A DNA stretch of 64,000 nucleotides from Planctomycetaceae bacterium. GTDB taxonomy: Bacteria; Planctomycetota; SZUA-567. Positions 19,636 through 22,995 of the stretch are shown here, in pieces (within the stretch, counting starts at the first letter, position 1; every line of letters begins with the position of its first letter). The notes under the pieces are model-generated. The model saw only the letters and a program-made list of their open reading frames with translations, was not told where the DNA came from and did not search any database. The stretch is from assembly GCA_021203245.1 (NCBI GenBank), contig JAJQBO010000217.1, forward strand, positions 1-64,000, in the 5' to 3' direction. The position numbers and the translations under genes are program-made.

Positions 19636-21237
19636 TTAGCGCAAGCTTTCGACCGCCGCCTTTTCGACCGCCAGGCCGGCCCGGTAGCGTTCCATAAAGC
19701 TGAGGAAGCCGGCGCGGTCCCCGGCGTTCGGGCTGACGCAGTCTTCCTTGAACGCGGCAAAGACCTTTTGGGCGAGGAACGCTTCGAGCGGTTCGCCTCC
19801 GTCCCGGCCGTGCATGTAGGCAGCCAGCAGCGCGATGCCCCAGGCCCCGCCTTCGCCCGCCGATTCCATCACCGCGACCGGAACGTTCAGGGCGTTCGCC
19901 ATAATGCCCTGGCCGACGCCCTTTGTTTTGAACAAACCGCCGTGGCCCAGCATTTTTTCCAGCCGCACCTGCTCATCGTCCAGAATGTCCATGCCGATTT
20001 TCAGGGTGGCGACGGTGGCATAGAGGAGGACCCGCATAAAGGTGGCGAGGCTCATCGGGCAGTCGGGCTGGCGGACGAACAGCGGCCGCCCTTCCTCGAT
20101 GCCGGTGATGGGTTCGCCCGAATAATAGTTGTAGGAGAGCATGCCGCCGCCGTCGGCCGCGCCCTCCAGGGCCTTGCGGTAGAGCGTTTGATAGAGGCTT
20201 GTCTTGTCGACGTTCGTGCCGAAGGCGGCGAGGACTTCACTGAACATGTTCGCCCATGCGTCGAGGTCGGAGGTGCAGGAATTGCAGTGCACCATGGCGA
20301 CGGGCGCGCCCGCCGGTGTCGTGACCATGTCGATTTCCACGTAGCGCCTGGACAGGCTTTTTTCCAGCACGACCATGGCGAAGACCGAAGTGCCGGCCGA
20401 AACGTTGCCGGTGCGGGGCGAGACGCTGTTTGTCGCGACCATGCCGGTGCCGGCGTCGCCTTCGGGCGGGCACAGGGGAATGCCAGCCGTGAGGCCGCCC
20501 GTCGGATCGAGCAGCTTCGCCCCTTCGGCGCTCAAACGTCCGGCCGCTTCGCCTGCCGCAAGAACCTTCGGGAGAACGTCCCGCAGCGTCCAGCCGTAGC
20601 CTTTGTGCTCCACCAGAGAGGCGAATTTCCCCAGCATGACGGCGTCGTAGTCGTTTGTCCCGCTGTCGATGGGGAACGTTCCGGAGGCGTCGCCGACGCC
20701 AAGCACCTTTTCGCCGGTGAGCCGCCAGTGGACGTAGCCGGAAAGGGTGGTCAGAAACGCGAGGTCGGCGACATGGGATTCGTCCTTGAGGATGGCCTGG
20801 TAGAGGTGGGCTATGCTCCAGCGCTGGGGAATGTTGAAGTCGAACCGCTCCGACAGAATCGACGCCGCCTCTTCCGTGATGGTGTTCCGCCAGGTGCGGA
20901 AGGGCGCGAGCTGTGTGCCGTCCTTGTCGAAGGGGAGGTAGCCGTGCATCATGGCGGAGACGCCAATCGCGCCGACGCCGCCCAGGGCCACGCCATAGCG
21001 CGACTGCACGTCGTCGGCCAGGCTCGTGTACACGCTCCGCAAGCCGGTCCAGACGTTGTCCATACTGTAGGTCCACACGCCGTTTTCGTATCTGTTTTCC
21101 CAATCATAACTGCCGGAGGCGATGGGGGAATGGTCGGGACCGACGAGAACCGCCTTGATGCGGGTGGAGCCGAGTTCAATGCCGAGAACGGTTTTGCCTT
21201 CGCGTATGGCCTGCGTGGCCGATTCCTGCGTGTTCAT
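19636..21237 (-). CDS. FGGY-family carbohydrate kinase
   Basis: A 533-residue sugar kinase with the two-domain FGGY fold. The phosphate-binding loop [17 protein letters not shown] is near residue 17, the substrate-domain block [12 protein letters not shown] near 110, the glycine-rich [11 protein letters not shown] near 280, and GGLFKTKG...[11 protein letters not shown] in the C-terminal lobe. GGAGGAGGG precedes the ATG. It phosphorylates a sugar or polyol with ATP in the cytoplasm. It is longer and more diverged than the xylulokinase at 46261, and resembles the ribulokinase/xylulokinase-like group, but the substrate cannot be assigned. It lies downstream of ilvA on the same strand, behind a conserved 110-base element. 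Confidence 0.85.
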
Positions 21238-21512: not shown

Positions 21513-22715
21513 CTATTCCTTGGTGATTTCGTAGCCCGCCTCCTTCAACCGGCGGAACAGTTCTTCGCCGTGTTCGCGGCCGCCGACCTCGCAGGCCATG
21601 TGGAGGATGGCGTCGTTCAGGCCAAGGCCGGGACTGAGGCGGTCATGCTGCACCATGATGACGTTGGCGCGGCAGGCGGCGACGATGGATGAAAAATGGG
21701 TGAGGCTGCCCGGCAGGTCCGACATGATGGTGCGGAACTTGATCTGCCTGCCCCGGGTGATAAGGCCTTTTTCCACGATCTTGTGGATAAAGCTCACATC
21801 GATGTTGCCGCCCGACAGAACGCAGACGGTCCGCAGCCCGGCGATCTCCACTTTTCTGCTGAGCGCGGCGGCGAGGGATACCGCCCCGGCCGGCTCGACC
21901 ACCATCTTGTTCCGTTCCAGCAGGAGGAGGATGGACTCGGCGATTTCGTCGTCGGAGACGGTGACCATGTCGTCGACATAGCGCTTGATAAAGTCGAAGG
22001 TGAGGCCGCCCGGCTGTTTGACCGCGATGCCGTCGGCGATGGTGTGGACGGTGGAGGTGGACTCAAGCCGCTCGGCCCGGAACGACCGCACCAGCGCGTC
22101 CGCGCCTTCAGCCTGGACACCGATGACCCTAACCCTGGGGTTGATGCTTTTTATATAATAGGCGATGCCGGCCAGGAGGCCGCCGCCGCCGGCCGGCACC
22201 AGCACCAGGTCGACGGTCGGCATGTCGCGGAAAATCTCGATAGCCACCGTGCCTTGTCCGGCGATGATGTCCTCGTCGTCGAAGGGATGGACAAAGGTCG
22301 CGCCCGATTCTTCCATGATTTCGCAGGCCTTGGCGTAGGCGTCGTCGTAACACGCGCCGTGGAGGACGACGTTGGCCCCGTAGTCCTGGGTGGCGCGGAT
22401 TTTGGCGATGGGGGTGGCGAGCGGCATGACGATGGTGGATTCGACCCCAAGGGTGGAGGCGGAGAACGCGACGCCTTGGGCGTGGTTGCCGGCGCTCGCC
22501 GCCACCACCGACGGGCAGTCGCCCCGGTTGGCCAGTTTGGAAATCTTGTTGAACGCGCCCCGTACCTTGAACGACCCGGTCTTCTGCAGGTTTTCGCATT
22601 TCAGGAACAGTTCCGCCCCGCTCATCTGCGAGAAGGTCCGCGACGACGAAAGCGGGATGGCGTGCAGCACCTTGTGCAATGTCGCGTGCGCCTGTTCGAT
22701 GTCTCTGACGTTCAT
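21513..22715 (-). CDS. ilvA: Threonine dehydratase with C-terminal ACT domain
   Basis: A 400-residue PLP enzyme that deaminates threonine to 2-oxobutanoate, the first step to isoleucine. The PLP lysine is K50 in SFKVRGAFNK. The phosphate loop is GGGGLLAG, and SGGNIDVSF near residue 310 leads into an ACT-type regulatory segment (KFRTIMSDLPGSLTHFSSI). The length matches the one-ACT class, which includes both catabolic TdcB-like and biosynthetic enzymes. The ribosome-binding site GTGGAG is six bases from the ATG. The upstream leader codes for an Ile-rich peptide followed by a terminator, which argues for a biosynthetic role controlled by isoleucine supply. No other ilv genes are adjacent. Confidence 0.93.
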   Translation of the reverse strand: MNVRDIEQAHATLHKVLHAIPLSSSRTFSQMSGAELFLKCENLQKTGSFKVRGAFNKISKLANRGDCPSVVAASAGNHAQGVAFSASTLGVESTIVMPLATPIAKIRATQDYGANVVLHGACYDDAYAKACEIMEESGATFVHPFDDEDIIAGQGTVAIEIFRDMPTVDLVLVPAGGGGLLAGIAYYIKSINPRVRVIGVQAEGADALVRSFRAERLESTSTVHTIADGIAVKQPGGLTFDFIKRYVDDMVTVSDDEIAESILLLLERNKMVVEPAGAVSLAAALSRKVEIAGLRTVCVLSGGNIDVSFIHKIVEKGLITRGRQIKFRTIMSDLPGSLTHFSSIVAACRANVIMVQHDRLSPGLGLNDAILHMACEVGGREHGEELFRRLKEAGYEITKE

Positions 22716-22742
22716 GGTGGCTCCACAAGAGGGCTAGGATTC

Positions 22743-22777
22743 AAAAGAAAATGCCTTTCGCCGTCGGGCGAAAGGCA
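22743..22777 (-). terminator. Attenuator terminator in the ilvA leader
   Basis: A perfect 11-base-pair stem (TGCCTTTCGCC/GGCGAAAGGCA) with a 4-base loop, followed on the minus strand by TTTTCTTTT. It ends 28 bases before the ilvA ATG and starts 27 bases after the leader-peptide stop, so it can only act on the ilvA transcript. Confidence 0.85.
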
Positions 22778-22804
22778 CAGGGGGTTTTGTCTTGTTTAAG
22801 GCCG

Positions 22805-22936
22805 TTAGTGGAAAGTGCCTGAACCCGCCGTGTGCTTTCGCCAGTCGGACATAATAATAATGGCCATAATGGGCGGAATCGACATTCCGCTTACGGGGTT
22901 CTGGCGCATGATTATGTCGAAGGGCAGATGGTTCAC
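22805..22936 (-). CDS. Ile-rich leader peptide of ilvA attenuator
   Basis: A 43-codon frame starts with GTG at 22936, five bases after GGTGGAG, and stops at TAA 22805-22807. Seven residues are Ile, including three consecutive ATT codons (residues 26-28). In the + strand 22835-22842 the codons just after these encode GGCGAAAG, which is identical to the core of the terminator's 3' arm and can pair with its 5' arm. A ribosome stalled at the Ile codons would leave this segment free to form an antiterminator. The same segment can also pair with CTTTC near the leader stop. The design matches leader peptides of amino-acid operons. The peptide itself probably has no function. Downstream in-frame ATGs are alternative starts. 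Confidence 0.75.
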   Translation of the reverse strand: MNHLPFDIIMRQNPVSGMSIPPIMAIIIMSDWRKHTAGSGTFH

Positions 22937-22965
22937 GGGTTCTCCACCGGTTTTTCAAGGAGACA

Positions 22966-22995
22966 ACTATACATCGATGGAACGAGACATGTCAA
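22966..22995 (-). promoter_or_regulatory. Strong sigma70 promoter of the ilvA leader
   Basis: TTGACA (plus coordinates 22990-22995) and TATAGT (22966-22971) are separated by 18 bases on the minus strand. Transcription would begin near 22958, about 20 bases before the leader GTG. Confidence 0.7.

Follow-up and report, generated by a model that had tools for sequence, protein, structure and literature searches.

The leader of ilvA in a planctomycete genome is very probably a classical ribosome-mediated transcription attenuator that senses the supply of charged tRNA-Ile. This assignment was made from sequence and draws on parts in the right order and spacing, conservation of a reading frame and its Ile codons, mutually exclusive foldings at nine loci, and compensating changes. 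From these features, we infer the transcription start, translation of the leader, ribosome stalling, and the direction and size of the Ile response. The mechanism is a known one, and the interesting part is the planctomycete set to which the leader belongs and its sharing between phyla. We consider it somewhat probable that the planctomycete family runs a set of leader-peptide attenuators (Ile for ilvA, Ile/Val for ilvB, Leu for leuA, and Trp for trpE), one of which was exchanged with Clostridia in a whole ilvABC operon and still works across phyla.

The window, by which we mean the whole stretch of 64,000 nucleotides analysed, is part of a 4.09-Mb metagenome assembly (G000; 269 contigs, this one being contig 187). 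The leader locus consists of the following features.

22966..22995, minus strand: promoter, with TTGACA (22995-22990), an 18-nt spacer, and TATAGT (22971-22966); read directly
22942..22948, minus strand: Shine-Dalgarno sequence GGTGGAG of the leader ORF; read directly
22805..22936, minus strand: ORF of the putative leader peptide, with a GTG start, 43 codons, and 7 Ile; translation MNHLPFDIIMRQNPVSGMSIPPIMAIIIMSDWRKHTAGSGTFH
22904..22926, minus strand: segment 1, the 5' part of the leader ORF; its likely partner, by folding, is the Ile run plus the start of segment 2
22873..22890, minus strand: small hairpin GCGGAAT-GTCG-ATTCCGC between segments 1 and 2, by folding
22853..22861, minus strand: control codons ATT ATT ATT, leader codons 26-28; read directly
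22822..22842, minus strand: segment 2, GGCGAAAG (22842-22835) plus CACACGGCGGGTT, the 5' side of the antiterminator, by folding
22767..22786, minus strand: segment 3, AACCCCCTGTGCCTTTCGCC, the 3' side of the antiterminator, by folding and covariation; it contains GTGCCTTTCGCC (22778-22767), the terminator 5' arm
22742..22762, minus strand: segment 4, GGCGAAAGGCAT (22762-22751) plus a T-rich tail; intrinsic terminator, -21.1 kcal/mol, with covariation
21513..22715, minus strand: ilvA, threonine ammonia-lyase with one C-terminal ACT-type domain (TIGR01127, 503 bits)

Much of this had been described in an earlier note on the window. The promoter, the ribosome-binding site, and the 43-codon leader with seven Ile codons (five ATT, one ATA, and one ATC) are indeed read directly on the minus strand. 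As claimed, GGCGAAAG lies just beyond the ATT run and is able to pair with the terminator 5' arm, as seen both in the sequence and by folding, and ilvA is of the ACT class. The promoter matches the consensus at 11 of 12 positions, where 0.3 such sites are expected per 1.6 kb. The terminator is present between the leader ORF and ilvA, at 22778-22751 and 35 nt before the gene, but its stem has 12 pairs, not 11, with a 4-nt loop and the T-rich tail. This ilvA is the only gene of the TIGR01127 type in the assembly. A strong 11-pair terminator at 23184-23158 closes the upstream sugar ABC-transporter operon, and the ilvA leader therefore looks like a separate transcription unit.

In the proposed mechanism, RNA polymerase would start at TTGACA/TATAGT, and a ribosome would translate the 43-codon leader. 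If Ile-tRNA is plentiful, the ribosome would clear the Ile codons and reach the stop codon; segment 1 would then pair with segment 2 (or the ribosome would mask segment 2), segments 3 and 4 would pair, and transcription would stop before ilvA. If Ile-tRNA is scarce, the ribosome would stall at Ile codons 8-9 or at ATT ATT ATT (codons 26-28), and so disrupt the pairing of segments 1 and 2. At codons 8-9, the stalled ribosome would itself sit on segment 1. A stall at codons 26-28 would leave GGCGAAAG... unpaired, segment 2 would take segment 3, and polymerase would continue into ilvA. The ATT run occupies leader nt 76-84, segment 2 starts at nt 95, and the stop codon is at nt 130-132. By the rule of thumb for the ribosome footprint in E. 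coli, a ribosome whose A site is at codons 26-28 reaches to about leader nt 89-95. By this arithmetic on leader coordinates, a stall at the control codons should keep the antiterminator accessible. Once at the stop codon, a ribosome would already be past the core of segment 2; hence, termination must rely on the 1:2 pairing re-forming, which is a slight departure from the picture of trp attenuation.

Comparison of the leader across relatives reveals that frame and Ile codons are conserved and that compensatory stem changes are present. Within the same genus, all three ilvA relatives (L012, L013, and L014, with 97%, 73%, and 72% IlvA identity) have the leader and keep the frame, the Ile codons, and segments 2, 3, and 4. 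The leader is MNQLPVDIMMRRNPVNGISIPSIMAIIIMSCGRKHTAGSGVFH in L012 and MSAVSANFILMRVLRVVGIIIPIISIIMNENRRKEMPF in L014; L013, whose contig starts within the leader, has the same 3' half only. The promoter is also found in L012 (TTGACATGTCTCGTTCCAGGAGAGTATAGT) and L014 (TTGACA..TATGGT, 17-nt spacer), lies off the contig in L013, and is followed in L012 by an identical Shine-Dalgarno sequence. All four planctomycete leaders, which amount to two close pairs, share GGAATnnnnATTCC of the small hairpin, ATTATTATG at the control codons, GGCGRAAG, CTTTCGCC, and GGCGAAA. Between the window and L012, the leader differs by 17 substitutions and no indels over 132 nt. Six of the seven Ile codons stay Ile; an ATC has changed to ATG and an ATG to ATT, so that each leader has seven Ile. 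The peptide drifts outside its Ile codons. Such retention of Ile amid drifting residues is expected of a control peptide rather than of a small protein with a function of its own. The 150 nt upstream of the promoter are hardly alignable between the two (82 of 168 columns). Outside the genus, five Clostridia loci (L022, L027, L028, L036, and L097) have a promoter-like sequence, an Ile/Val/Leu-rich leader (for example, MLNLSVLLTAIIGIILGNIVLVTVILLVVVLVLGRRRNG... in L036), and three RNA segments, in the same layout but with different, compensating sequences.

For all nine of these loci, ViennaRNA predicts both structures, terminator and antiterminator, with segment 3 in common; antiterminator z scores are -2.5 to -5.2. 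In the window, the antiterminator is far longer than the 8 bp originally named; it extends through CACACGGCGGGTT / AACCCCCTGTG and reaches -28.8 kcal/mol (z about -3 to -4). Pair counts across loci are modest, being based on seven distinct rows with hand-cut segments: in the terminator stem, 92% of cells are paired and five pairs are changed on both sides, and in the antiterminator, 91% of cells are paired and two pairs are changed on both sides. The terminator covariation score is 0.41, compared with at most 0.26 for every slid register. Covariation in the antiterminator is weaker, with a score below that of the -1 slide, where only 61% of cells pair. A T-to-C change of segment 3 in Oscillospiraceae has its counterpart in segment 2 as well as in segment 4.

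The layout proposed in the earlier note holds for segments 2, 3, and 4 but missed the pairing of segment 1 with segment 2. In folding of the window, the first three bases of segment 2 are paired with a probability of about 1.0, and the same holds for the start of segment 2 in L012, L014, L022, and L036. The 1:2 pairing is also predicted in these four loci and in L028 and L097, with differing sequences (for example, TTGCCCG:CGGGCGA in L012, CTCCGCC:GGCGGAAG in L014, and CCGTTTTGC:GCGAAACGG in L036). Little such pairing was found in L013, whose contig begins inside the leader; the scoring covered all of the loci but L027. Segment 1 would thus complete the classical 1:2 / 2:3 / 3:4 design in most loci. 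The early Ile and Met codons of the leader then make sense, because they form segment 1.

Several counts indicate that the leader and its switch are unusual within the window. Among 553 window ORFs of 15-80 amino acids, only the leader ORF and one antisense ORF have at least five Ile per 12 residues. Triplets made of an 8-mer, then its reverse complement, then the 8-mer once more occur three times in the window, compared with 0.15 expected from Markov-simulated windows, and only the one in the leader precedes a T-run. Six window genes favor ATC over ATT (108:35), and the ATT run of the leader is therefore atypical. A search with the exact pattern of the planctomycete switch through 16 family genomes and the 7 genomes behind the loci found nothing beyond ilvA leaders, so the switch is not a repeated element. 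That three planctomycete metagenome-assembled genomes (MAGs) and five Clostridia keep the layout indicates, at the level of sequence, that leader and switch are not a product of chance.

These observations bear on other readings of the locus. If the terminator were constitutive, serving the upstream ABC-transporter operon or blocking read-in, the Ile-rich ORF would be a chance companion. Intergenic terminators are common, and a simple scan expects 1.7 in the region. However, the upstream operon ends at its own terminator, the promoter intervenes, and eight other loci have segment 2 and the Ile-rich frame in conserved or compensated form; we regard this explanation as extremely improbable. The same grade applies to a T-box or metabolite riboswitch, in which the transcript would sense uncharged tRNA-Ile or a ligand and the short ORF would be incidental. 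Another form of tRNA sensing does exist for this gene, as a T-box precedes the same IlvA family in Fusibacter paucivorans (L065 2697-2919). Yet the covariance-model method that detects this T-box (RF00230) yields no match in the leader, and neither does Rfam as a whole, whether at gathering or at relaxed thresholds. Moreover, the features kept are Ile codons and an open frame without indels, not a T-box core. Chance frame, constitutive terminator, and T-box were all dropped for the ilvA leader. At none of the leaders of interest did Rfam scans reveal a known family; they covered the whole window, the leader alone at a relaxed E-value, and 27 related loci. As an observation in its own right, the T-box of L065 in place of a leader peptide represents a sensor swap for one ilvA family.

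It is also very unlikely, if marginally less so, that the peptide acts in trans or that the leader governs ilvA translation, by coupling or reinitiation, instead of termination. Leader peptides in such roles are known, as with peTrpL (PMC7298713), and reinitiation near a start codon has been proposed (PMC4833913). In the ilvA leader, however, the peptide drifts outside its Ile codons, a strong terminator separates leader and gene, and the leader stop codon is 89 nt before the ilvA start, compared with 10-16 nt in the reinitiation proposal (PMC4833913).

Additional candidate attenuators were found by scanning regions upstream of ilvB, leuA, and trpE for runs of matching codons and then seeking terminators. 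In the window genome, an Ile-rich leader of its own, MFATLAIISVIIEPIAIGDAMHGPA, precedes the native ilvB (L140, G000:C266, about 1290-1470); it comes with a promoter, an alternative pairing (GCATGGGCC/GGGCTCATGC), and a terminator (AGCCCCGGGCTCATGCCCGGGGCT-T5). A Leu_leader match at this leader is sub-threshold (29 bits, cut-off 50) and was not counted. The ilvB leader of G005 (L141), MFSVVASISIIIEPIAIGDAMHGPA, is likewise Ile-rich, with a promoter and terminator, and a hairpin CCGATTGCGATCGG occurs in both native leaders, L140 and L141. Leaders rich in Val codons, each with a terminator, lie before ilvB in G007 (L133; MTSFKSNVVVLVTVHTVVSGVVLVGL) and G017 (L134; MLVVVVVVEVVVGLVT), which represent a different genus of the family and a different family of the order, and ilvB of G004 has a shorter Val-rich leader. 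Leu-rich leuA leaders that end in strong terminators are present in G000 (L151, G000:C131) and G005 (L153), both as LLGLLLGLLLIGSPGARG, and a similar one in G009 (L155). The Trp-rich trpE leader WWRGNWWRLTPPAVP is found in G000 (L179, G000:C242) and G005, and related WW..WW frames, all with terminators, in G001, G003, and G009. At trpE loci L179, L177, L175, L176, L178, L181, and L182, the leader repeats the 3' arm of a conserved terminator of the GGGACAGCC type. Folding predicts antiterminators for those ilvB, leuA, and trpE leaders that were checked. A chance origin of these leaders appears unlikely, because they are conserved across species and the codon matches the gene each time. In G018-G021, of the same class, the ilvB, leuA, and trpE upstream regions that were checked have no such leaders, and the homoserine dehydrogenase genes of the family have no Thr/Ile leader.

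Leader-peptide attenuation is a textbook mechanism that requires a ribosome close behind the polymerase. Like the enteric ilvGMEDA leader (ilvL, E. coli K-12 NC_000913; MTALLRVISLVVISVVVIIIPPCGAALGRGKA), the window leader combines a promoter, a short ORF rich in branched-chain amino acids, an antiterminator and terminator, and an ilv gene downstream. It differs in having mostly Ile codons, instead of Ile, Val, and Leu codons, and a single ilvA; relatives with ilvA-ilvB(-ilvC) are closer to the enteric arrangement. As the earlier note had stated, the leader is unrelated to the enteric sequence: the local score against ilvL is 17, where the shuffled mean is 16.6, so descent from the enteric ilvL family is not supported. 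The ilvB-OMG, ilvB, and ilvB-II RNA motifs, for which attenuation of branched-chain amino acid genes has been proposed in several phyla, also contain uORFs rich in these amino acids (PMC10272879). These motifs precede ilvB, whereas the window leader precedes ilvA and has no Rfam match. Outside Proteobacteria, runs of control codons with terminators are found in the trp, ilvB, and leuS attenuators of Actinobacteria (PMC1262725), which differ from the window leader in phylum, genes, and sequences and include no ilvA case. Classical leader peptides also include the histidine leaders of bacilli, for which horizontal transfer is possible (PMC2965389), and the Leu-rich attenuator peptide of Staphylococcus aureus (PMC5794164). 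Those concern another amino acid or gene, and the former report includes no Planctomycetota. No description of amino-acid attenuators in Planctomycetota turned up in the full texts searched, where leader genes of this phylum are handled only statistically (PMC4833913). The cell plan of Planctomycetota is disputed (PMC5394234, PMC5287468), and one classification of phyla with runaway transcription does not list it (PMC13323073). The conserved, compensated attenuator set is evidence, from sequence, of coupled transcription and translation in Planctomycetota.

The earlier note had placed the leader in a distinct lineage and in control of a single ilvA. The lineage is Planctomycetota, but the leader is shared with Clostridia; a lone ilvA follows it in just two cases, the window species and the closest relative. 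In L013 and L014, ilvB follows ilvA, with ilvC next in L013, and in the Clostridia loci L027, L028, and L036, ilvB again follows ilvA, with ilvC too in L028. The nearest non-planctomycete IlvA proteins are clostridial, with up to 66% identity. The planctomycete sequences of the IlvA tree cluster with L027, L028, and L097 (83/91), and L022 and L036 form a separate nearby group; leader presence requires two changes on this tree, compared with 8.5 in shuffles. The IlvB of L014 is 57-59% identical to the IlvB of these clostridial loci versus 45-52% to all native planctomycete IlvB, and the four IlvB proteins of attenuated operons form one group with 100/100 support. Because both trees group genes across phyla, operon and attenuator probably moved together. 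The simplest reading is that leader-ilvABC was probably transferred between Clostridia and the ancestor of the planctomycete genus, most likely into the planctomycete, and that the extra ilvBC was later lost in the window lineage, with leader and ilvA retained. The presence of the attenuator does not just track the gene family, since such a leader is missing from most Butyricicoccaceae with 62-64% IlvA identity. A kinase gene beside ilvA (19636-21237) has 66-89% matches in four other genomes of the genus, in three of which it is on a different contig from ilvA. These matches and the window GC content of 62% argue that the contig is not a stray clostridial piece.

If the attenuator set and the exchange are real, transcription and translation must be tightly coupled in these planctomycetes and in those Clostridia. 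Bacillota have been classed as having runaway transcription (PMC13323073), and the clostridial attenuators are therefore exceptions worth testing. The probable exchange of operon and attenuator also offers a concrete case for the question of whether leader peptides are transferred or arise anew (PMC2965389). Several gut Clostridia MAGs (L073-L084) lack an Ile-rich ORF and have another conserved hairpin, TCCTGTCTCTTT..AAAGAGACAGGA (no Rfam match in L074), which is followed by a T-run and lies 75-80 nt before ilvA.
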